A DNA stretch of 52,197 nt. Source: a bacterium. GTDB lineage: Bacteria; SZUA-182; DTGQ01; JAFGSM01. The notes below the pieces were generated by a model that was not told where the DNA came from, searched no databases, and saw only the letters and a list, made by a program, of their open reading frames with translations. A program made the translations under genes and the position numbers. Where the stretch lies: the NCBI GenBank assembly GCA_016934595.1, contig JAFGSM010000022.1, forward strand, positions 1 through 52,197, given 5' to 3'. Positions 187 through 32,200 of the stretch are shown here, in pieces. The number at the start of each line of letters is the position of its first letter. Within the stretch, counting starts at the first letter, position 1.

Positions 187-1464
187 ATGCATGTACATTT
201 TGGCTTAACGTGGTTTTATCAATTACTTTATTGCTTTATAACAACTGCCATTATTCTAATTTTTGCATATTTGGTTCATAGAGGCAGGAAAAAAGATGGT
301 GTTCCGGGGTCTATCCAAAATATTGCAGAGGTGTTGGTGGAAGCCCTGGACAACATAATTAGGCCTGAACTGGGTAAAGAAAAGTTACCTCATATCCTTC
401 CCTTCCTTGGCACCTTTGTTCTTTTTATATTAATATCGAACTTCTTCCTTATAGTACCCCATGCCCATCCGCCAACAAGCGATTGGAGCAATACCTTTGC
501 ATTGGCATTGATTGTTGTAATCTCCTTGCAATACTATAATATAAAGTTAAATGGACCCAAAAAGGCAGCTAAATTATGGTTGGACCCAATCCCGGGTTTG
601 GGTAAAAAGGAGGACTCAGAGGAATTAGAATCTGCAAAAATAAAAGGAGCAGGAGAAGAGCCAAATATAAAAAAGAAGTCAAGGATTTGGAAAATAGCGG
701 TTTTTCCATTTTTGATTCTCTACATTGTGGATAATTTTGCGGCATTAATCTCATTGCCAATTAGAACTATGGTCATATATTGTCTAATAGCTTCAGGCCT
801 GATTTTGGCTTTTTCACTTTGGATAAGGTCAAAGCTTAAAGGAGATAATATACCAACAGGCATCCAGTGCTTGATGGAATGGATGATTGTATCTTTATTA
901 AAAATTTTTGGATTAGAGGAAGAAAAGGATGTCTCCTTATTTAAATATGCCTTATTTTATTTTATAGGGACTTTGGCTTTAATTTTAGCTGCCGTATTTA
1001 TTCTATTTATCCCTTTTAATCATACGGCAATCGTAAATATACTAAGCGTATATTCGATACTCGTTGTAATCTTTTTTATTTTTAATTATCTAAATCACAG
1101 CTTAACTTGGCATAAAAAGGTTTTGAAGGCTGTTTGGGTGCCGGCGTCAAAGCTTTTAAATCTCTTAATGGGCTTTTTAAAACAGATTCCTGTAAAAATT
1201 ATCGTAATATTTCTTGTGGCATTGCATGTTGTTGATAATGGCGCAAGGATGCTTTCTTTATCGCTTCGACTTTTTGGAAACATTTTTGGCGAGCACAGCG
1301 TGCTTGCCATGGTGACAGATGTGGCTATTAAAAGGTATTATTTCGTTGTCCCCATTTTTATACCATTTATGATATTCTGTATGGATGTTCTCTTTGCTGT
1401 CATACAAACCTTAGTTTTTGTAATGCTTAGCCTCTTTTATTTTAAGGAGGAGCTTGGGGTACAT
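187..1464 (+). repeat. Two-unit internal duplication within atpB
   Basis: Unit 1 is encoded by about 187-765 and unit 2 by about 766-1464. Protein-level matches are colinear: YCFI with YCLI at an offset of 183 residues, a GT pair at 75-76 with one at 261-262, and IVDNFAALISLPIR with VVDNGARMLSLSLR at an offset of 168. The units are too diverged to be an assembly duplication. A long charged loop (about 138-166) is present only in unit 1. Confidence 0.75.
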
Positions 1465-1467
1465 TAG
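187..1467 (+). CDS. atpB: F-type ATP synthase subunit a, internally duplicated
   Basis: This is the membrane stator subunit that forms the proton half-channels against the c-ring. At 426 residues it is far longer than the usual 230-290. Residues 1-193 look like an a subunit with the canonical PPTSD motif (95-99) and the following helix, and stop at an arginine in the context SLPIR (193). Residues 194-426 restart as a second copy: YCLIAS at 198-203 mirrors YCFITT at 15-20, and IPTGIQ at 222-227 mirrors VPGSIQ at 39-44. The second copy ends with a canonical channel helix, SLSLRLFGNIFGEH, which carries the essential arginine (R361), and a normal last helix. The second copy has lost PPTSD, and the first lacks the end of helix 5 and helix 6. 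It is first in the operon, 110 bases before atpF. Identity as AtpB is sure; how the extra helices are used is unknown. Confidence 0.92.
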   Translation: MHVHFGLTWFYQLLYCFITTAIILIFAYLVHRGRKKDGVPGSIQNIAEVLVEALDNIIRPELGKEKLPHILPFLGTFVLFILISNFFLIVPHAHPPTSDWSNTFALALIVVISLQYYNIKLNGPKKAAKLWLDPIPGLGKKEDSEELESAKIKGAGEEPNIKKKSRIWKIAVFPFLILYIVDNFAALISLPIRTMVIYCLIASGLILAFSLWIRSKLKGDNIPTGIQCLMEWMIVSLLKIFGLEEEKDVSLFKYALFYFIGTLALILAAVFILFIPFNHTAIVNILSVYSILVVIFFIFNYLNHSLTWHKKVLKAVWVPASKLLNLLMGFLKQIPVKIIVIFLVALHVVDNGARMLSLSLRLFGNIFGEHSVLAMVTDVAIKRYYFVVPIFIPFMIFCMDVLFAVIQTLVFVMLSLFYFKEELGVH

Positions 1468-1577: not shown

Positions 1578-2060
1578 ATGCTAGGATTTGATTTTTCTAA
1601 AACAATTTTTTTGGTAGCAAATTTTTTTATTCTTCTCTTTCTTATGAAAAAATTTTTCTTTAAACCAATAATGGAGATATTGGAGGCAAGAAAAGATAAA
1701 ATTGAAGAAGGCTTGAAGCAACGGGCAATAGCCAAAGAAGAACAGGAACAGGCATTAAGGGACAGGGAAGAGATTATTGCAAAAAGCAAATCAGACGCTC
1801 AAAAGATTCTGAATCAGACCGAGCAGATGAAAAAGGATATTATCGCTAATGCGAAGTCAGAGGCGGATAAGATTTTGAAGGACGCTAAAGCAGAGATTGC
1901 TAAAGAGAGAGAGGAACTGAGGCAAGAGATGAATCTAAAATTGATTGAACTTGTCAGTTCAGCCGCATATACCGCTCTTCCGGATCTTGCCAAACAGGAC
2001 GGTCATAAGGATTTAGTGGAGAGTGTAATCTTGGACAGTTTAAAGCGAGTGGCGCAGTAA
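1578..2060 (+). CDS. atpF: F-type ATP synthase subunit b
   Basis: This is the peripheral stalk subunit that links the membrane stator to F1. The protein has 160 residues, a normal length. One N-terminal membrane helix spans about residues 8-28. It is followed by a long, highly charged coiled coil rich in Glu, Lys and Ala (about 30-125) and a C-terminal part of the usual b type. There is no delta-like extension at the C-terminus, unlike the b-delta fusions of mycobacteria. The start follows a clear CGGAGGA ribosome site. It is placed before atpE, the reverse of the usual order, and there is a single b gene, so a b homodimer is expected. Confidence 0.93.
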   Translation: MLGFDFSKTIFLVANFFILLFLMKKFFFKPIMEILEARKDKIEEGLKQRAIAKEEQEQALRDREEIIAKSKSDAQKILNQTEQMKKDIIANAKSEADKILKDAKAEIAKEREELRQEMNLKLIELVSSAAYTALPDLAKQDGHKDLVESVILDSLKRVAQ

Positions 2061-2122
2061 AGCTTATATTGTATAATTTAAACCAATAACTGTTAATCAA
2101 AATTTTAGAAGGAGGCAGTATA

Positions 2123-2521
2123 ATGTCATTAAAATCAATATTTAAATCTGTAGAGCGTAGAATGTTTAAGGTTATAAGGAATAAAAAAACCATTTTTTAT
2201 GTGCTGACTAATACAATCTTAATATCGTTGGCCTCTCCTATTGCCCTGTGGGCTGAAGAAACAATGTCCACTATCACTACGCGGTCAGGGGAAGTCGCCT
2301 GGGTTGAGGCATTAAAAGCGGTAGCCGCGGCAATATTGCTTGGCTGGGGCGCGTTTGGAGCAGCTTTGGGAATTTCGAAGTTTGGAACGGCCTCTCTTGA
2401 AGGTATGTCCAGACAGCCGGAAATTCAGGGAAAACTTTTTATGACCATGTTGATTGGTATGGCTATTATCGAGGCATTGTGTCTTTATTGTCTGGTTGTA
2501 GCCTTGATCTTGATTATTTAG
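2123..2521 (+). CDS. atpE: F-type ATP synthase subunit c, with signal-peptide-like leader
   Basis: This is the rotor ring proteolipid. At 132 residues it is longer than the usual 75-90 because of about 45 extra N-terminal residues. These have basic residues, a hydrophobic stretch and a likely cleavage site after ALWA (44). The hairpin follows: helix 1 (about 65-93), the polar loop with RQPE (97-100), and helix 2 with the ion-carrying glutamate E117. The residue after that glutamate is Ala rather than Ser or Thr, and the helix 1 position that carries Gln in sodium c subunits is Ile, so proton coupling is the better reading. An AAGGAGG site precedes the ATG. The leader suggests Sec or YidC insertion with cleavage, as in some other phyla. 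Confidence 0.93.
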   Translation: MSLKSIFKSVERRMFKVIRNKKTIFYVLTNTILISLASPIALWAEETMSTITTRSGEVAWVEALKAVAAAILLGWGAFGAALGISKFGTASLEGMSRQPEIQGKLFMTMLIGMAIIEALCLYCLVVALILII

Positions 2522-2715
2522 ATAAAGGATTTTCATAGTTTATTGTGTCTGCACGAAGGACGCAGAATTGAACAAATAAGGAGCTTAACAATTTAATAGA
2601 AGCTATTAGTCTAATTTATGATAATAACTATTTGTTTAAAAGAAAAGATAGCTGATATCGTAAATAGATTGAATTGATTTTTATACTTGGAGCATTTTAA
2701 GGAAGGCCGGAAATT
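2522..2715 (+). other. atpE-atpA intergenic gap where atpH would be expected
   Basis: These 194 bases separate atpE from atpA, the place where the delta gene often stands. I see only a 19-codon open frame (from 2618) with no ribosome site, and no delta-like peptide in any frame. The stretch is AT-rich and looks non-coding. Confidence 0.6.
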
Positions 2716-4515
2716 ATGGAACAAGTTAAACAGGAAGGACTAAAAGAGGCTTTGAATAAAGCCGATCAACCTTTGGTCTTATTAAGCCCTACTATATATA
2801 GATCTGATTTTGTTGATAATCTGGAGAGGCAGCTTTCCGAGATTGCTGGTAAAAAGATACAGATTAAGGTATTTACAGATGCAAAGCAGGAAAGTCCGTT
2901 ATTATTTTTAAACAGGGACAAGAAGATAAATCTTGATGCCAGGCAGAGTTTTATAGGTGAGTTAGACAGAAGGTTCATGGAATTGAAGGGCGATATCCAG
3001 CAATTAAGGTCGGAGGATATCACAAAGGAACTCAGACAGATAATTGAAGCGACAAAGCCTACATTTAAGGTTGAGGATATGCGGCAGGAAGGCGTTGTCC
3101 TTCAGGTAGGAGATGGTATTGCAAGGGTTGCGGGCCTTGAACATGTAGGTTCCATGGAGGTCGTGGAATTTGCAGGCAGTGTCTATGGCCTGGCCTTTAG
3201 TTTGGAACAGGACGCAGTTGGATGTATTTTGCTTGGCGCTGAAGAGGATATCAAGGAGGGCAGCAAGGTTGTATGCACCGGCCATCAGTTGGAGATACCT
3301 GTAGGCGACGGAATGATCGGCAGGATAGTTAATGCCGTAGGGCAACCGATTGATGGTAAGGGTAAAATTCTTGCCACTAATTACAGACTGGTGGAAAGGA
3401 TAGCGCCACGCGTTGTCACACGTCAGCCTGTCCGTCAACCGGTACAAACTGGTATAAAGGCAATAGACGCCATGATCCCTATAGGCAGGGGACAAAGGGA
3501 ATTGATAATCGGTGACAGAAAGATCGGCAAGACCACCCTGGCGATTGACACCATAATTAACCAGAAAGGTAATAATTTGGTGTGTATTTATGCAGCTATA
3601 GGACAAAAGGCGGCTGCCGTAGCCAAAGTTGTGGAGGTTTTGCGAAGAGAGGGCGCCCTGGACCATACTATTATTGTAGCGGCGCTGGCCAATGAACAGA
3701 CAGCATTTAAATACCTAGCTCCATATACTGCCTGCGCCATTGGTGAGGAATTTATGGAACAAGGAAGAGACGCCTTGGTCATATATGACGATCTGTCAAA
3801 ACATGCAGTGGCTTACAGGGAGATGTCGGCTTTATTAAAAAGGCCTATCGGACGTGAGGCTTACCCGGGCGATATATTTTATGTACACTCGAGATTATTG
3901 GAGAGGGCTGCAAAATTAAGCGATGAAAAAGGCGGTGGGTCTTTGACAGCCATACCTATAATTGAAACTTTGGGCGGGGATGTGACCTCTTATATCTCAA
4001 CCAATGTTATATCCATTACTGACGGTCAGATATACCTGGAATCAGGATTATTTAATACGGGATTCCGTCCTGCTATCAATGTCGGTTTGTCGGTGTCAAG
4101 GGTTGGTGGAGCTGCGCAGACAAAGCTGATAAAGAAAATCGCCGGCAGGCTGAGAATAGACCTTGCCCAGTATCATGAAATGCAGGCATTTGTAAAGTTT
4201 GGCGCTGAGGTAGATGAGGCCACGAAGGCACAGCTTGCAAGGGGTGAGAGAGGCCGTGAATTGTTAAAACAGATTCAGTATGCTCCTATGCCTTTAGCGG
4301 AAGAGGCATTGGTGCTTTATGCCGTTGTAAATAGCCTGATGGATGAAATACCTGTCAAGAGGGTTGGCGAATTCGAAAAGGGTCTCGTGGCGTTTGCCCA
4401 CCAAAATTATCAGAATATTGTGGATATTATTCAAGAAAAGAAGGACCTTACGCCTGAGATAGATGCAGGACTCAAGGAAATAATTGCTGAATTCAAAAAA
4501 CAATTCGTTTCATAA
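2716..4515 (+). CDS. atpA: F-type ATP synthase subunit alpha with delta-like N-terminal domain
   Basis: This is the non-catalytic nucleotide-binding subunit of F1. The body is canonical: P-loop GDRKIGKTT, the [17 protein letters not shown] segment, and the arginine finger in [10 protein letters not shown]. At 599 residues it exceeds the usual 500-510 because about 95 residues precede the normal alpha start (near [15 protein letters not shown]). That extension reads like the C-terminal domain of delta/OSCP. It begins with a beta strand ending in a Ser-Pro turn, then a helix ([14 protein letters not shown]), then [11 protein letters not shown], a strand pair around [16 protein letters not shown], and a last helix with L and R at the expected places. 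The Gly-Gly of typical delta is missing. ATG 2716 follows AAGGAAGG. The alpha identity is certain; the domain origin is my inference. Confidence 0.95.
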
Positions 4516-4528
4516 GTAGAGTGTAAAC

Positions 4529-5482
4529 ATGTCACAGAAGTTGATAGATTTGAAAAACAGGATGAGAAGTGTTGAGAATATTAAGGGTACAACTGAGACC
4601 ATGTCTACTGTTTCCGCTGCAAAATTGGCCAGAGCCAGGTACAAAGCGGCTACTTTAGGTATTTTTGCTGAAAGGATGAGGCAAATTGCCTTGATACAGT
4701 CCGAACTTGCCCTTTTTTCCGAGAAAGACATGTTTTCCGAAGAGGTTTTAAATCAAGTCTCTCCATTGTTGGTCAAGAAGGTAAACAAAAACAGGATTGT
4801 GATGTTTGTCATTGCTTCGGATATAGGAATGTGCGGTAATTATAATGGCAGGATCGGCAAGACTGCTCAGGGTTTTTTAGATGGTATAATAAGGAAAAAC
4901 AAAAAGGCTGAGGTAGGTGTTTGGATTAAAGGAATCAGGGGAGAAAGGTTTTTTAAAAGGAACACCCCTTTTCCAATATTAAAAGTCGAACCCTGGTCAG
5001 ATCAAGGGGTATCAATATCTGATGCCCTGTCACTTATAATGACTATGACAGATCTCTTTTTACACAGGAATATCGATGAGATATATTGTGCCTATACAAA
5101 ATTTCTCAGTCCGGTTAAGCGGCAGCCCACGGTTATAAAGCTATTGCCTTTTAGTTTTGGGATTGAAGAGGAAACCAAGAAAGGAAAAACTGCCATAACA
5201 AAGTGGATATATGAACCGGATTCCCTGACGATCCTAAAAGAATTGATACCGATGTATTTCAAGATACAGATATTCGATATCCTTTTAGAATCTTATGCAA
5301 GTGAACAGGGCGCAAGGATGATGGCAATGGAAGACGCTTCAGACAGGGCTTCGGAAAAATTGCATGAGATGGGCATACAGTATAACAGGATGAGAAGGGA
5401 TTTAATCACACTGGATTTATTAGGTATTCTAAGTGCAGCCAGGGTAATAGAAAAAGAGTCTGCATCTCAAACAGCATTCTAG
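4529..5482 (+). CDS. atpG: F-type ATP synthase subunit gamma
   Basis: This is the central rotor shaft of F1. At 317 residues it is slightly longer than the usual 285-295. The N-terminal coiled-coil strand begins with LKNRMRSVENIKGTTETMS, the core has SDIGMCGNYNGRIGK in place of the common SDRGLCG, and the C-terminal strand contains ESYASEQGARMMAMEDAS and ends with DLLGILSAARV. The extra length is in the middle Rossmann-like part. It lies 13 bases after atpA and 15 bases before atpD, within one operon. Confidence 0.95.
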   Translation: MSQKLIDLKNRMRSVENIKGTTETMSTVSAAKLARARYKAATLGIFAERMRQIALIQSELALFSEKDMFSEEVLNQVSPLLVKKVNKNRIVMFVIASDIGMCGNYNGRIGKTAQGFLDGIIRKNKKAEVGVWIKGIRGERFFKRNTPFPILKVEPWSDQGVSISDALSLIMTMTDLFLHRNIDEIYCAYTKFLSPVKRQPTVIKLLPFSFGIEEETKKGKTAITKWIYEPDSLTILKELIPMYFKIQIFDILLESYASEQGARMMAMEDASDRASEKLHEMGIQYNRMRRDLITLDLLGILSAARVIEKESASQTAF

Positions 5483-5485
5483 TAA

Positions 5486-6931
<1,446 letters not shown>

Positions 6932-6948
6932 AAAAAGGACACACGTCA

Positions 6949-7419
6949 ATGGCAAAAGACAAGAAAAAGGGAAGGATATCCCTTGAAGTGCTCACTCCAG
7001 AGAAGGTTGTTCTTCAGGATAACGAAATAGATATTGTTGTTGTCAGGGATCTGGCGGGCGAACAGGAGGAAGGCGAGCTTACAAAAGAAAAGTATATAGG
7101 AATTTTGGCCAATCATGCGCCTATGTTGGTGCGCCTGCCAATTGCCCCGATAAGATATGAAAAGGCTGACGATGTTTATTGGGTGGTGGTTGCAGGCGGG
7201 TTCTTAGAGGTTGCTTATAACAAGGTGACAATACTTTCATTTGGAGCGGAAAAGGTTATCCAGGAACCCGATATAGATCTTGCTATCACTGCTAAAAAGA
7301 GGGTTGAGAGCTGGTTAGAGGGACAGGTAGGCGGAGTCGGATTTGATGAAAAGGCCGCTGAGGCTGATCTCAAAAAATCGGTTATCGAGCTTTACAGGGC
7401 TTCTTCTCATTCAGAGTAA
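6949..7419 (+). CDS. atpC: F-type ATP synthase subunit epsilon
   Basis: This is the rotor foot and regulatory subunit. At 156 residues it is longer than the common 130-140. The N-terminal beta sandwich starts with ISLEVLTPEKVVLQDNEIDI and contains ILANHAPMLVRLPIAPIRY and VVAGGFLEVAYNKVTILS. An acidic insertion of about ten residues (EQEEGELTKE) sits where the family usually has a short G-x-x-G turn. The C-terminal part is helical (about 108-150) and could form the inhibitory hairpin. It is the last gene of the operon, 17 bases after atpD. Confidence 0.92.
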   Translation: MAKDKKKGRISLEVLTPEKVVLQDNEIDIVVVRDLAGEQEEGELTKEKYIGILANHAPMLVRLPIAPIRYEKADDVYWVVVAGGFLEVAYNKVTILSFGAEKVIQEPDIDLAITAKKRVESWLEGQVGGVGFDEKAAEADLKKSVIELYRASSHSE

Positions 7420-7574: not shown

Positions 7575-8507
7575 ATGAAGCTAAAACTGGATTTTGAGAG
7601 TTTAGAATCACAGTGGAAAGCAAGGCAGATTGATCTATTCCCTTGGCTGGACGGCCTTTTTGCGCTTATAAGAACAAGGAAAAGCCTTATAAGAGAAACG
7701 GAAAAGAGGCTCTCTTCCTCTACGCATGCCACAATGGTGCAGTTTTTATCCTCAGATGACAGAGATTGCGCAAGAGTAGCCCGTCAGATCATCAAAAAAC
7801 AGGACCATGAATCCTTACTGCCAATATTACTCTATAGCCTTGAGAAGATCGAAAAAAAGGATTATCCCAGACGGGTAATGGAATCCCTGCTTGATTTTAA
7901 TCCGAACCTTTCATTTGGATATCTTTTGGGATATCTAAATCTGCGGCAGATGCATAAAGATAAAGTATTTCAAATGATAAGCGGGATTTTTCAGCATTTG
8001 GATGAGTCTTATCCAAGCCCTTATACGAAAGAACAATTTTTTGTTGATATTTTTTATGCGATTAGAACCGATCTAGAAGATCGTATGCCTTCTTCCAAGA
8101 TATTAAAGACCATGGAGGACTTCGAAAAGATAGTTTTGGATCTAAGGATTCTCAAACTTATATACAAAAGTATCGCCAAGAAAGAAGACGACAGGGTAGT
8201 TGAAGATGAAATGCGAAGGATTGGCAGGGAGGTTGTTATTTCTCTTAAGGGTTTGTCTTTTAAGTTTGATCATTGCGATATTATTATTGAGCAGATATCT
8301 GATGTCATTCCATACATGGCCCTTATGAGACTTGATGCAGATTTGGAATTTCTTGAGGACTTGCCGTCCAAGATCAAAACATCTCCTGTATCAAAGGATG
8401 AAAAAGAAGATATAATTGATAAGGCTAAAGCGGCTATAAAGATTATCGAACAGCCGGAGCGGTGCATTCAGGAAATATTGGATGAGCTTGAGGCGCCTCC
8501 GTTTTAA
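7575..8507 (+). CDS. Hypothetical helical protein, 310 residues
   Basis: I do not recognise this family. The protein is hydrophilic, with no signal peptide or membrane helix, and is predicted by eye to be mostly helical. Alternating Leu/Ile and charged residues and short paired helices, as around RVARQIIKKQDHESLLPILLYSLEKIEKK, recall HEAT-like or other alpha-solenoid folds, but no repeat can be called with confidence. The acidic C-terminal tail ends ILDELEAPPF. No good ribosome site precedes the ATG. It stands alone between the ATP synthase operon and rplM, with 155 and 289 bases on either side, and could be a regulator or a structural protein. Confidence 0.7.
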   Translation: MKLKLDFESLESQWKARQIDLFPWLDGLFALIRTRKSLIRETEKRLSSSTHATMVQFLSSDDRDCARVARQIIKKQDHESLLPILLYSLEKIEKKDYPRRVMESLLDFNPNLSFGYLLGYLNLRQMHKDKVFQMISGIFQHLDESYPSPYTKEQFFVDIFYAIRTDLEDRMPSSKILKTMEDFEKIVLDLRILKLIYKSIAKKEDDRVVEDEMRRIGREVVISLKGLSFKFDHCDIIIEQISDVIPYMALMRLDADLEFLEDLPSKIKTSPVSKDEKEDIIDKAKAAIKIIEQPERCIQEILDELEAPPF

Positions 8508-19863: not shown

Positions 19864-21909
19864 TTAAAACAGGCTCATCAACAGCCCGTGCAATCTTAAG
19901 ATCAAAGGAACAAATACCAGCGAAACCACGGCCATCAATTTTAATAATATATTCAATGAAGGGCCTGCCGTATCCTTATAAGGGTCTCCGACTGTATCGC
20001 CAACGACAGATGCCTTGTGTGCATCCGAGCCCTTGCCGCCCAGGTTTCCCTCTTCGATGTATTTTTTTGCGTTATCCCATGCGCCTCCTGAATTGGCAAG
20101 CATGACTGCAAGCGGAACTCCTGTTATAAGGGATCCTACAAGGAATCCTCCCAATGCCTCTATACCAAGGATGATGCCTATAGCCAGAGGAAATAAAACA
20201 GACATAATGCCTGGCAACATCATTTCCTTTAAGGCATTTTTAGTGGTGATATCAACGCATTTCGAGGAATCGGGCATAGCCTTGCCTTCCATGAGTCCCT
20301 TGATTTCCCTGAACTGTCTTCTGACTTCTTCCACAATGGAAAACGCAGCCCTTCCAACAGCCTGCATAGCCATGGCGCAGAACAGGAATGGGACAATCCC
20401 TCCGATAAAAAGCCCTGCCACGACTCTGGAGTCCATGGCATTTAAAATGTCCAGTCTGGCTGACTGTCCATACGCCACAAAAAGCGCCAATGCCGTCAAG
20501 GCGGCGGAACCGATGGCAAATCCCTTGCCGATTGCGGCAGTTGTGTTTCCTATCGCATCCAGTTTCTCTGCCCTCTTTCTTACTTCAGGCCCCATGCCGG
20601 CCATTTCGGCTATGCCTGCTGCGTTATCCGCAATCGGACCATATGCATCCACTGCCACAGTCATTCCTGTTATTGAAAGCATGCCTATGGCTGATAAGGC
20701 TACGCCGAATATGCCTGCTGTCTTGTATGAAACGATTGTGGCAATGGCAATGCCGATGATGGGCAAAGCGGTTGATTTCATGCCGATGGCAGTGCCTTGG
20801 ATGATGACTGTCGCCGGACCGGTCTTTGAAGAGTTTGCTATAGTGGCAACAGCTTTTCCGGAGGTATAATACTGGGCAACATAACCTACAATCATGCCTG
20901 CTATCAGTCCTGACAAAACCGCCCAGAAAAACTGAATATTGCCGTACCATGACACAGTAAGGACAAATGCCCCTATGGCAAGAAGAACTGCGGAAGCGGT
21001 CATTCCCTTGTTGAGCGCCTTCTGTGGATCGGATTTTTCATCCGTCCTGACGAAGAATATCCCGATAGTGGAAGAAACAATGCCCCATGCAGAAATAAGA
21101 AGGCAAAGCATCACGCCCTTTATATCGATCCTCGGATTTGGCGCAGCCGCGATCACCATACCGGAAACTATGGCCCCGATATACGATTCAAACAGATCAG
21201 CGCCCATTCCTGCGACATCGCCAACGTTATCCCCAACGTTATCCGCAATGACAGCGGGGTTTCTTGGATCGTCCTCAGGTATGCCTTTTTCTACCTTGCC
21301 CACCAAATCGGCGCCTACGTCTGCAGCCTTTGTATAGATGCCGCCTCCGACCCTTCCAAAAAGGGCGACCAGTGAAGCGCCCATAGAAAAGCCTGCAATC
21401 ATACGGACTGCTTCAACAATGGCAGTGGTTTGGTCAGGCTGGAGTCTTTTTTCAATTAAAATAATAGTCAAAAAAGCCAGTGAAAGGCCAAGGAGGCCGA
21501 TGGAGACAACGCTTGTCCCCATCACTGCGCCGCCCGGAAATGCCACGCCAATTGCCTCATTATAGCTCCGGGATGCAGCCTGAGCGGTTCTGCAGTTAGA
21601 TCTTGTGGCAATGCTCATACCTATGTATCCTGCTGATACCGAGCAAAGGGCTCCAAAAACAAAGGCGAAGGCGGTTTTTTTATCCACGAAAAAGAAAAGG
21701 ATAACAAATACTATAACTACCACTATGGCAATGGATTTATATTCACGGAATAGAAAAGCCATTGCGCCTTCATGAACGGCATTGGAAATCTGGATCATCT
21801 TTTCTGTGCCCGGATCCTTCGATAAAATCCTCTTTGCAAGAATCCAAACAAAAATAATGCCTAAAACACCGATCCCCATGGAAATAAAAATAGGATACAA
21901 ATTTGTCAT
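19864..21909 (-). CDS. hppA: Membrane-bound K+-dependent pyrophosphatase
   Basis: This integral membrane enzyme hydrolyses pyrophosphate and pumps cations. It has 681 residues and about 16 helices. Substrate motifs are intact: DVGADLVGKVEKGIPEDDPR, NPAVIADNVGDNVGDVAG and, near the end, GDTVGDPYKDTAGPS. The segment GNTTAAIGKGFAIGSAALTAL has Ala and Gly where K+-independent enzymes have Lys and Thr, so K+ dependence is expected. The glutamate in GMGADLFESYIGA is at the position seen in Na+-pumping members, while plant-type H+ pumps have it four residues later. AAGGAGGGGG precedes the ATG. Confidence 0.97.
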   Translation of the reverse strand: MTNLYPIFISMGIGVLGIIFVWILAKRILSKDPGTEKMIQISNAVHEGAMAFLFREYKSIAIVVVIVFVILFFFVDKKTAFAFVFGALCSVSAGYIGMSIATRSNCRTAQAASRSYNEAIGVAFPGGAVMGTSVVSIGLLGLSLAFLTIILIEKRLQPDQTTAIVEAVRMIAGFSMGASLVALFGRVGGGIYTKAADVGADLVGKVEKGIPEDDPRNPAVIADNVGDNVGDVAGMGADLFESYIGAIVSGMVIAAAPNPRIDIKGVMLCLLISAWGIVSSTIGIFFVRTDEKSDPQKALNKGMTASAVLLAIGAFVLTVSWYGNIQFFWAVLSGLIAGMIVGYVAQYYTSGKAVATIANSSKTGPATVIIQGTAIGMKSTALPIIGIAIATIVSYKTAGIFGVALSAIGMLSITGMTVAVDAYGPIADNAAGIAEMAGMGPEVRKRAEKLDAIGNTTAAIGKGFAIGSAALTALALFVAYGQSARLDILNAMDSRVVAGLFIGGIVPFLFCAMAMQAVGRAAFSIVEEVRRQFREIKGLMEGKAMPDSSKCVDITTKNALKEMMLPGIMSVLFPLAIGIILGIEALGGFLVGSLITGVPLAVMLANSGGAWDNAKKYIEEGNLGGKGSDAHKASVVGDTVGDPYKDTAGPSLNILLKLMAVVSLVFVPLILRLHGLLMSLF

Positions 21910-28319: not shown

Positions 28320-31300
28320 TTATTTTCGATTCAAAAAGGATTCTTTGATCTTTTCAGCGATTTTTCCCTCAGTCCCCGTCATAAGAAAACCGGCGCTCAA
28401 GCCCTCTAATAAACTGTCATCCCAGGGGATGTCCCATTCTGTGACAATATCCACAATCTCGTTGTATTTTTCGCTGCCCATGGCCTTGATCTTTTTATCC
28501 ATAGAAAGGTCATCCAGGAAGGTTATATGAAAGACCGTAAGATACATCTCGCCTTCCTTTTTTCCCATTAATGGAAATATGATAATCTGCGCATTATCCC
28601 TTAAACCGGTTCCGACATACACCTCTGCGTTTTTAACCACGGTTCGTTTTGTACCCTTCAATGTCCGGTCTTTTTCAACCCGTGAAGGGATTTCAGCGGC
28701 AACTCCCAGACGGTCGAGTAGCCTTATGCTGGAATCCTCCGTAGGCCCTCTGACCGGATCAAGCCCGGTTATATGATATAGCGTGGCCCCTTCAACCTCT
28801 TTGACTGCGGGCTGTATGTGTCTTAAGTTTGAGATTACGCTCGGGCTCAAATCCTGGGGGCCAAAGCCCATTTTGGGGAGCATATCAAAGATCACGCCTG
28901 AGAGTATCACAGGCAACCTGCTTGTCCCGACAGTGACTGTTTTTGCCTGATGTTTTATGGCATCTATCGGCCTTGACAACTGGCCTATGATCTCGTCAGT
29001 GACCTGAGTCAACATGATGAGGGGGTCGCTGTGTGCCGCCGTAGGCCCGATGTCGTTAATCATTTCGTTTACAGGGATCTGTCCTATGGCATATCTGCAG
29101 GCTAGGGCAATATTGCAGAGTGTGGAAGGCTTTACAGCGCATTCGAATCTCCCTTCCTCTTTTCTGTGCATGGCCTCCTTTACAAATTCCTTTAAAAGGA
29201 GGCGTACCTCTCTATCATATATCATATCAGGGCCGTCTTCGTCCAGTCCGGATAGAATCTCTATCCTCTTTTGCAGTCTGACCTTGAACTGGCGGAAAAA
29301 GTCCGCCTCAGCATTGATCGCCCTTGCAATATAATATCCAAAGAGATGCCCTGCAACCGTATTGAGGACAGGCGCCATTCGTTCATTGATGGTAGGTACA
29401 GTAAGTATGACGTCAGCTAATCCAAGGATGCGATCCTCTCCCTCTGTTGCTATACAGATAACTGTCGCCTGATGGGCCTTGAAGATGGCTATATCCTTTA
29501 TCACATCACCCAGGACAACATCCCTGTTTCCCGCAGCGCATACAATAATCAGCGGCTCCGCCGAGAGATCTATATGTTTTCTGTCCTCGACTACATCGGC
29601 GGGCAAGGTCTTGTAGCACAATTCGCTCAGCTTGATCCTTATCTCATCCGCGGCCATCTTATTCGGGCCGCTTCCGACAACAGACCAGTTCCTCTTTTTT
29701 AACGCCACAGGGCCTGCTGAGGATGATATATAATCCCTGTTTTCCGTTATGATCCTGTACATAAGGTTGGGCAACCGCATAAGGTCTCTGACCTCCGAGG
29801 CGATATAGCCGTCAGGCATTGCCTGAAGGATCTGGGTTATAAAAAGGCCGATTATACAGCCTGCGGCGATTTGAGTATAAAATGCCTTTGTGGATGCAAC
29901 GGACATCTCTATATCCCTTCCATCGCCTGTATAGAATACCCCGTCCACCTTGGTGGTGATATCGGAATCCCGCCTGTTGACGATCGCCATCGTGAATGCC
30001 CCGTGGTTCTTGGCCATATCTATGGCCTTGTTTGTGTCTGTTGTCGTGCCTGATTGGGTAACGGCAATTACAAGTGTATCGGTCATGGAACGGTCAAGCC
30101 CGAATCCGCTCAATTCGGATGCCTTTGTTGCGCTTATGGATATAGAAGCCCTTGAAAGGTATTCAGACATAAGCATAGCTATACCCTCTGCGGCCACGCC
30201 TGCGGTTCCCTGGCCTACAAGATATATGTGTCTGATACTGCCTGCACAGAGGGCTTCCTTTATTCGGCCCGGGATGATCTCTTCTCCCAGGTTGAAGACA
30301 ACCCGCCTTTCCCTGTCCTCTTTTATGACAGCGGCCTTTCCCCTCATGGTTTTTCTGACAGACTCAGGGGCCTGGCTTATCTCTTTAAGGTAATAATGCG
30401 GGAATCCCTGTCTGTCAATGTCACGGGTCGTTATCTGAGCGGTTTTTATACTGGATTCTGTCACCGGAATGGGATGACCGTCGTAATAACATGCACTGAT
30501 GCCTTCCACGCCGCCCTTTGTGTCGATCACAAATATTTGTCCCTGTGTTTCCTTGCGGCCAGGTATCCTTTCTTTTTCCCCGTCGAGTTTTATATAATAT
30601 GGGGTCTGCTCGACAAGCCCATAGACCTCTGACGAGGCAACATAGCAATCGCCCCCTATTCCGATGAAGATGGCCTGGCCGCTTCCCTGTTGAGCAAGAT
30701 ATATATGATCAATCTCTTTGTCGGATTGAATGATGATTGCGTGTGAGCCTTTGAAATCGGATACTGCCAGTCTAACCGCCTCATTCAGGGGATGACCCTT
30801 CGATACATAATGTCCTATCCAGAGTGGTATGATCTTTGTGTCGGTTGTGAAATATGCGGGTATGTGAATGCCGTCTTCCTCCTCAAGTCTCTTCCTGATC
30901 TCCTGGTAGTTGTCTATATCCCCGTTCAGGGCTGCATTTATCTGGATCGCATTCGTAGGCGTTTTATTGGAGACTGTGGAATTGTCAATCGGATGGCAAT
31001 TGACCTCTGTGATATCACCTACAGACGCCCACCTGGTATGGGCTATAGCCTGTGAATATATGCCCTGTTGAGATAGCGCCATGCTGAAGATATTATCCTT
31101 TGCGATTTCATCCCTCAAAAAAAGCACGTTTTCTCCCAACTGGCCAAGCTCCCTGGCAGTCTTGAATACAAAACAGAGATTAGGCCACTGTGAGACGATA
31201 GCCTTGTGGGTAAAATACTTGATGACCTTCCGTTTTTCATACTCCTCATACAGACCGGCGTCTTTCAGAGACGTTTCCCAAGATTCTGCCCCTTCTTGAT

Positions 31301-32051
31301 CAGGTAGCCTTATCATCAGGGAGATGCCTGCCGAGTCTCTACCCCTTATCTCAAGGCGGTCGAGGTTATTCAATATAATATTGATTTTGAACATCTCGCG
31401 GATGAGGCGTTTTGAGATATCTCCGTCCTTCTCCTTTTTCACATGGGCAATGAGGTGGTCAACCTTTTCGAGATTTGCGAGCAGTTCCCTTTCCAGCCAC
31501 CAGACGCTGTCTTTGAGTTTTATCAAACGATTGTTAACCATCTCGATCGTGGATGAACCGATTTTGCTCCCCGCCTTATCAAGAATGGAGTCCTCATTCG
31601 AAAGAAAGGGATTTATCTCTGTGACGAGTTTCCTTAACTCCTCCTGGGCCTTTTTGTCTTTGAATATATGCTCAAAGACCTTTATCCCTTTCAAGGCAAT
31701 AATCTCATCCATAAATCCGGACAGGGATAAATCGCCTCCAAGATATTCTCTTTCGGATATCTGCCCTTCCATAAGCGCACGGAGTCCTTTTTGGTATATC
31801 TGCAGCCACAATTCCTTTATCTTGCAGATATTTGAGGCATGAACCTTATCTGCATACTTTTTCCGATCCTTTCCGGTTTTATCCTTGTATTCAAGAATGC
31901 CTATGAATCCGCAGCAAAGATGATTAACATGTAAGGGGAATAGTATCCATGAACCATCCGGCACACTATATGGTGATTTTCCGCAATATACCGGGGACGT
32001 AAGGAGGGATGACAGGCAGATAGAAATTTTGCGAAAGATGGATTTAATCAT
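28320..32051 (-). CDS. Giant GlmS-like glutaminase/SIS-domain protein
   Basis: The protein has 1243 residues from the chosen start, twice the usual GlmS. The glutaminase half is split. CGFIGIL (from Cys47) matches the MCGIVG start. It is followed by about 185 inserted helical residues, then the continuation RLEIRGRDSAG (232-242), HTRWASVGDITEVNCHP (338-354) and a degenerate NGD. Two SIS domains follow. The first (about 605-745) has VTQSGTTTDT and SVASTKAF; the second has SELCYKTLPADVVEDRKH in place of the usual KEISYIHAEAY segment. About 280 unassigned residues end the protein. The frame is open to 32102, but those first residues fall in a dispersed repeat, so ATG 32051 is used. There is no ribosome site. 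It likely makes glucosamine-6-P or a related sugar. Confidence 0.8.
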   Translation of the reverse strand: MIKSIFRKISICLSSLLTSPVYCGKSPYSVPDGSWILFPLHVNHLCCGFIGILEYKDKTGKDRKKYADKVHASNICKIKELWLQIYQKGLRALMEGQISEREYLGGDLSLSGFMDEIIALKGIKVFEHIFKDKKAQEELRKLVTEINPFLSNEDSILDKAGSKIGSSTIEMVNNRLIKLKDSVWWLERELLANLEKVDHLIAHVKKEKDGDISKRLIREMFKINIILNNLDRLEIRGRDSAGISLMIRLPDQEGAESWETSLKDAGLYEEYEKRKVIKYFTHKAIVSQWPNLCFVFKTARELGQLGENVLFLRDEIAKDNIFSMALSQQGIYSQAIAHTRWASVGDITEVNCHPIDNSTVSNKTPTNAIQINAALNGDIDNYQEIRKRLEEEDGIHIPAYFTTDTKIIPLWIGHYVSKGHPLNEAVRLAVSDFKGSHAIIIQSDKEIDHIYLAQQGSGQAIFIGIGGDCYVASSEVYGLVEQTPYYIKLDGEKERIPGRKETQGQIFVIDTKGGVEGISACYYDGHPIPVTESSIKTAQITTRDIDRQGFPHYYLKEISQAPESVRKTMRGKAAVIKEDRERRVVFNLGEEIIPGRIKEALCAGSIRHIYLVGQGTAGVAAEGIAMLMSEYLSRASISISATKASELSGFGLDRSMTDTLVIAVTQSGTTTDTNKAIDMAKNHGAFTMAIVNRRDSDITTKVDGVFYTGDGRDIEMSVASTKAFYTQIAAGCIIGLFITQILQAMPDGYIASEVRDLMRLPNLMYRIITENRDYISSSAGPVALKKRNWSVVGSGPNKMAADEIRIKLSELCYKTLPADVVEDRKHIDLSAEPLIIVCAAGNRDVVLGDVIKDIAIFKAHQATVICIATEGEDRILGLADVILTVPTINERMAPVLNTVAGHLFGYYIARAINAEADFFRQFKVRLQKRIEILSGLDEDGPDMIYDREVRLLLKEFVKEAMHRKEEGRFECAVKPSTLCNIALACRYAIGQIPVNEMINDIGPTAAHSDPLIMLTQVTDEIIGQLSRPIDAIKHQAKTVTVGTSRLPVILSGVIFDMLPKMGFGPQDLSPSVISNLRHIQPAVKEVEGATLYHITGLDPVRGPTEDSSIRLLDRLGVAAEIPSRVEKDRTLKGTKRTVVKNAEVYVGTGLRDNAQIIIFPLMGKKEGEMYLTVFHITFLDDLSMDKKIKAMGSEKYNEIVDIVTEWDIPWDDSLLEGLSAGFLMTGTEGKIAEKIKESFLNRK

Positions 32052-32055
32052 TTTT

Positions 32056-32200
32056 CGTAATAGTTTACCACGGATTTTCACTGAATTGAACTGGACAGTC
32101 ATTTTCCGTGATATTCCGTGTACTTCCGTGGTAACATTCTGTATTAACGTAATTTATTCGGCTCAGGGTGAACGGTTACCACAAAAGATATTTTCCTACG
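32056..32200 (+). repeat. Dispersed repeat, left copy
   Basis: This stretch of about 145 bases is similar, by eye about 80 percent, to 47964-48110 in the same orientation. Shared blocks include CCACGGATTTTCAC, CGTGTACTT and TTAACGTAATTTATTCGGCT. The first half is itself an imperfect palindrome: its two ends read TACCACGGA inward on opposite strands, with CACGGA recurring every ten bases. No protein is encoded. It lies just upstream of the GlmS-like gene and overlaps the first 16 codons of that open frame. Confidence 0.8.

Follow-up and report, generated by a model that had tools for sequence, protein, structure and literature searches.

Two homologous a-subunit domains fused in one chain of a second bacterial F-type ATP synthase

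Results and Discussion

The window, i.e. the whole stretch of 52,197 nucleotides analysed here, carries close to its start an F-type ATPase operon in which an a subunit (AtpB) is encoded together with the subunits b, c, alpha, gamma, beta and epsilon (1578-7419). The same genome (G000) also holds a canonical F-type operon on a separate contig, where the a subunit measures about 270 residues, and we therefore refer to the operon in the window as the second one. Its features and the respective evidence are as follows:

187..1467, + strand: atpB, doubled a subunit of the second F-type ATPase, 426 aa (open frame, Pfam, hhalign; kept in the relatives G001 and G003)
187..585, + strand: N1 (residues 1-133), corresponding to helices 1-4 of ordinary a subunits and including N85, PPTSD (95-99) and G123 (HMM score, invariant residues, alignment of ordinary a subunits)
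220..765, + strand: copy 1 of the repeated segment (residues 12-193), with helix 5' truncated at its end and R193 replaced by Lys in the relatives (hhalign register, alignment)
766..1269, + strand: copy 2 of the repeated segment (residues 194-361), of which N2 is the N-terminal half, with decayed channel residues (hhalign, column comparison, low N2 score)
586..1194, + strand: block without counterpart in ordinary a subunits (residues 134-336), composed of a cytoplasmic linker, h5', h1', surface helix 2', h3', h4' and a linker (skipped in alignments)
1195..1464, + strand: C2 (residues 337-426), channel helices 5 and 6, with R361, N365, H370, D400 and Q407 (HMM score; invariant R, L, F, N and Q columns)
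1578..2060, + strand: atpF, b subunit, 160 aa (PF00430)
2123..2521, + strand: atpE, c subunit with a leader-like N-terminal extension, carboxylate in IIEALCLY (PF00137)
2716..4515, + strand: atpA, alpha subunit with an N-terminal extension of ~110 aa (PF00006 etc.)
4529..5482, + strand: atpG, gamma subunit (PF00231)
5498..6931, + strand: atpD, beta subunit (TIGR01039, 724 bits, cut-off 462.85)
6949..7419, + strand: atpC, epsilon subunit (PF02823)
7575..8507, + strand: companion gene of no known family, 310 aa, directly 3' of atpC in all three doubled operons (conservation)

The atpB frame (187-1467) comprises 426 codons and is open, without an internal stop. Its product scores 145.8 bits against PF00119 (ATP-synt_A; cut-off 33.9) and 108.7 bits against TIGR01131 (cut-off 102.6). 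PF00119 matches twice, with profile positions 2-119 at bases 226-579 and with positions 2-216, i.e. the whole domain, at bases 775-1443. Divided into unit 1 (residues 1-193) and unit 2 (residues 194-426), the protein shows 22% identity between its units in blastp (E 0.002), and hhalign of three-sequence profiles yields 97.3% at an E value of 2.6e-11. In this register columns 13-192 of unit 1 lie on columns 3-169 of unit 2, with R193 placed on R361. In each of three doubled proteins the Smith-Waterman score between the units exceeds those of 1000 out of 1000 window-shuffled controls (z 7.7-13.4). AtpB thus holds two homologous a-subunit domains fused in one chain, as an earlier note on this DNA had proposed; the halves are significantly similar and in register, and the middle segment, being homologous to unit 1, is not an unrelated insertion. 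As described there, PPTSD (95-99) is confined to unit 1, and SLSLRLFGN along with the last helix is confined to unit 2. Of the two units, which the note had described as complementarily degenerated, only unit 1 is truncated; unit 2 spans the whole domain.

Among nine genomes of the phylum the doubled a subunit is found in three (G000, G001 and G003), which represent three genera and two families. The relatives of AtpB have 426 (G001) and 425 (G003) residues and are 58-60% identical to it over both units; their presence in other genera shows that the layout is no assembly artefact. In two further genomes, G002 and G004, the a subunit of the orthologous operon is single, with about 260 residues and 35-41% identity to either unit of AtpB, and an F-type a subunit was undetected in the remaining four of the nine. 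A canonical F-type operon is also present in each of the five genomes G000-G004. Outside this order no doubled a subunit was found in searches of 386, 392 and 136 genomes (partly overlapping, ~900), where matches in the latter two were listed only at E <= 1e-14. Scans of viral contigs and of genome contigs returned no useful relatives of AtpB, and a search with an N2 profile in the phylum of G280 was empty and uninformative. The sample of doubled proteins comprises three sequences from one clade. In the openly licensed papers covered by our literature search no doubled F-type a subunit is described.

Hydropathy and helix prediction arrange AtpB as h1, surface helix 2, h3, h4, h5', h1', 2', h3', h4', h5 and h6. 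This corresponds to about nine membrane helices plus two surface helices, where about ten helices had been expected. The loops carry 28 Lys and Arg residues on the proposed inside versus 3 on the outside, which indicates that the four added crossings leave the orientation of C2 normal. A single-sequence AlphaFold2 model (pLDDT 48.5, pTM 0.28) was interpreted for helix positions alone. AtpB shares with F-type a subunits (PF00119/TIGR01131) its homology, the family residues in N1 and C2 and the setting in an atp operon. It differs from them by two domains per chain, by about nine membrane and two surface helices compared to five to six membrane helices in a single domain, and by a block of ~200 residues. 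AtpB is therefore a variant rather than a typical member of the family.

Ordinary a subunits pair with AtpB in two pieces, residues ~8-138 (N1) and ~337-426 (C2), and the ~200 residues in between are skipped. This pairing results when the doubled proteins are aligned with eight ordinary a subunits (hhalign E 1.5e-45), is seen again across many of 254 matching genomes and is also obtained with solved a subunits, e.g. those of chloroplasts and Bacillus PS3. Scored with an HMM of ordinary a subunits, N1 reaches 80-84 bits (N-half of the single orthologues: 83-85) and C2 56-63 bits (C-half: 59-63), compared to only 13-26 bits for N2. N1 contains the family-invariant residues P40, E48, G63, N85, P91 and T97. 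N85 in helix 3, which is Asn in 23 of 23 reference subunits, persists in N1, whereas the N2 segments of the three proteins have V, V and I there; G123, conserved in 22 of 23, likewise persists in N1 and has given way to W in N2. Thus, the helix 3 Asn and the PT[SD] region (N85, P91, T97) are preserved in N1, whereas N2 has lost N85 and, in part, the rest. In C2, R361, N365 and Q407 fall on family-invariant columns (E. coli R210, Asn214-like and Gln252-like), and the E. coli 219/245 pair corresponds, by offset from R361 and Q407, to H370 and D400, both invariant in the three doubled proteins. Judged by these columns, the R361/N365/H370/D400/Q407 set of a-subunit residues, including the essential Arg, is present in C2, for which proton conduction is predicted. 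The second channel arginine that the earlier note had seen in R193 aligns with R361, but position 193 is Arg in G000 and Lys in both G001 and G003, so that R193 is no conserved counterpart.

We assign a probability of about 0.62 to the reading that AtpB is a tandem-duplicated a subunit in which N1 and C2 form the working proton path and the inserted block is a retained structural part of the stator. One ordinary a subunit with its proton path would thereby be made up of N1, which supplies helices 1-4 from copy 1, and C2, which supplies helices 5-6 following copy 2. The insertion between them would consist of four membrane helices plus a surface helix (h5'-h1'-2'-h3'-h4'). As the inserted crossings are even in number, the topology of C2 would be kept. 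In Bacillus PS3 helices 1, 3, 4 and 5 flank the periplasmic half-channel, which meets the c-ring between helices 5 and 6; one b helix contacts a-subunit helices 1-4, the other helices 5 and 6 and the 3-4 loop (PMC6377231). Its retained residues point to N1 as the likely half-channel partner of C2, against which it would pack. The copied half-channel in N2 is devoid of its polar residues and thus probably provides no second proton path. The extra helices 1-4, of which 1' and 2' are better kept than 3'-4', most likely became a structural element of the stator and are best read as an added docking surface. Since helices 1-4 hold one b helix in PS3, an extra copy would give the second b helix a dock of its own; from this analogy and modest differences in conservation we tentatively place the second b helix on N2. 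It is possible, though rather doubtful, that N1 and N2 grip the two b helices symmetrically or that N2 provides an additional, regulated access route next to the c-ring. If true, the copied block would have a new function in the motor, and we know of no solved complex with such an F-type stator architecture.

If, on the other hand, unit 2 (N2 and C2) were the working a subunit, unit 1 (N1 and h5') would be an addition, e.g. a clamp on b or on the edge of the c-ring. The Pfam domain is matched in full by unit 2 (profile 2-216), which forms one contiguous stretch and, compared to C2 alone, scores about 5-15 bits higher in G000 and G001 and level in G003. A full contiguous domain that lies slightly above C2 alone in two of three proteins makes packing of N2 on C2 possible. 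However, N2 has lost the invariant Asn and the near-invariant Gly that N1 keeps and evolves faster than N1, and N1 scores like a functional N-half, which renders this assignment unlikely.

With regard to its origin, the repeat fits one in-frame tandem duplication inside the gene, by which residues ~12-193 would have given rise to a second copy at 194-361. The remaining end, 362-426, is unique and has no partner in unit 1. In this event, ~182 codons of a ~260-codon gene would have been duplicated in tandem directly after the position of the channel arginine, and no later helix deletion would be needed. As such a duplication yields the layout at once, there is no need to regard unit 1 as a full copy that has degenerated. 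The earlier note had assumed two complementarily degenerated copies that divide their functions, i.e. a whole a subunit duplicated and fused, each copy losing what the other kept, with functions split between complete ancestral subunits. Ancestral constraint does reside in the first half of unit 1 (N1) and the second half of unit 2 (C2). Yet only the middle N-half has decayed, N2 has been retained as an extra rather than deleted, and R193 is not conserved as Arg. Moreover, this route would also require h5b-h6 to be lost precisely up to the point of fusion, where one internal duplication explains the same layout. If N1 and C2 represent the single subunit of the ancestor and it is the copied block that has lost channel residues, no division of functions has to be invoked, and we regard one as improbable.

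The middle block is relaxed and evolves faster than N1 and C2, yet it is under purifying selection, with dN/dS values (G001-G003) of 0.07 for N1, 0.16 for the middle and 0.044 for C2. Between G000 and its relatives, surface helix 2' and h1' are 55-66% and h3'-h4' 42-50% conserved. Lower conservation, the higher dN/dS and the vanished channel residues would suit a neutral passenger without function, but its ratio of 0.13-0.16 is far below 1 and unit 2 has kept a length of 233-234 residues with invariant P, G, Q, E and W positions across three genera, so that we give this notion little credence. Two chains from one gene, arising via an internal start at the conserved Met195 or via proteolysis and giving a split a subunit, are highly improbable: T194-M195 is invariant in the three doubled proteins, but a Shine-Dalgarno-like stretch before Met195 is absent from all three genes and the frame is continuous.

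In a tree of alpha, beta and gamma, from which the a subunit was left out, the operons with the long homologues in G001 and G003 and that of the window group together as a clade (99/99), to which the single-copy operons are sister, and hence a single duplication event suffices. The species tree (SecD and RpsB) and the tree of the canonical operon unite G001-G004 against G000 (100/100 and 99/99, respectively), and forcing the second-operon tree to follow the species grouping is disfavoured (AU p 0.017). Owing to this conflict, the doubled operon was probably exchanged between the two families, as judged from these phylogenies; old paralogy followed by losses is an alternative that we keep in view.

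Few components of the F-type motor are as constrained as the a subunit. If the working subunit is indeed interrupted by a decayed copy of one of its halves, the stator channel tolerates a large internal duplication. The single-copy orthologous operon provides a before/after comparison, by which the half-channel and the b-docking parts of subunit a become testable. For an F-type ATP synthase whose a subunit is interrupted by additional membrane helices we found no described counterpart in the openly licensed literature. V/A-type ATPases possess multi-hairpin rotor subunits (c/K), which are enlarged by internal duplication and fusion. In both cases a membrane subunit of a rotary ATPase is enlarged by duplication; there it belongs to the rotor, whereas here it is the channel subunit of the stator.

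The second operon shares with those of G002 and G004 the N-terminal extension of alpha, the operon type and the absence of a delta gene. It differs in that the latter are without internal duplication, have the order B-E-F instead of B-F-E and encode a c subunit without a long N-terminal extension. The gene atpH (delta) is absent from the second operon, and each genome has one PF00213 gene, which lies in the other operon. The alternate F1F0 or N-ATPase is likewise encoded by a further F-type operon next to a canonical one and likewise lacks the delta gene. However, N-ATPase operons start with beta and epsilon and hold atpQ/atpR, whereas the order here is a-b-c-alpha-gamma-beta-epsilon, and the scores against the N-ATPase models stay far below the cut-offs (TIGR03306 for a, 72.4 versus 302.1; TIGR03324 for alpha, 596 versus 750.5; TIGR03305, 608.7 versus 752). 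Membership in this group was thus rejected.

The ~110-residue N-terminal extension of alpha (2716-3075) is present in all five second operons and exclusive to second operons of this order. It has no Pfam match, and its model reaches a pLDDT of 49.9. The predicted order of elements, beta-alpha-beta-beta-alpha, and an alignment with the C-terminal domain of delta that is in register and not significant (hhalign 1.4%) suggest a possible fused delta-like domain. The leader-like extension of the c subunit (2123-2521) measures ~60 residues in the doubled operons and is largely missing from c of the single operons. Epsilon of G001 and G003 (L034:10687-11613 and L036:10591-11499) has ~300 residues including a proline-rich repetitive insert of ~150 residues, which is missing from epsilon of the window (6949-7419). 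The companion gene was considered as a marker of doubled operons and rejected, because distant homologues occur in single-copy genomes, in G004 at ~4.5 kb upstream of the operon and in G002 at another place in the genome.

According to homology matches on the window and contigs C31, C113, C221 and C272, the genome apparently encodes up to three rotary ATPases of the V/A type in addition to two of the F type. The window also contains a membrane pyrophosphatase gene (19864-21909) and, at 28320-32102, an open reading frame of 1260 residues that resembles glutamine-fructose-6-phosphate aminotransferase and is about twice the usual length.
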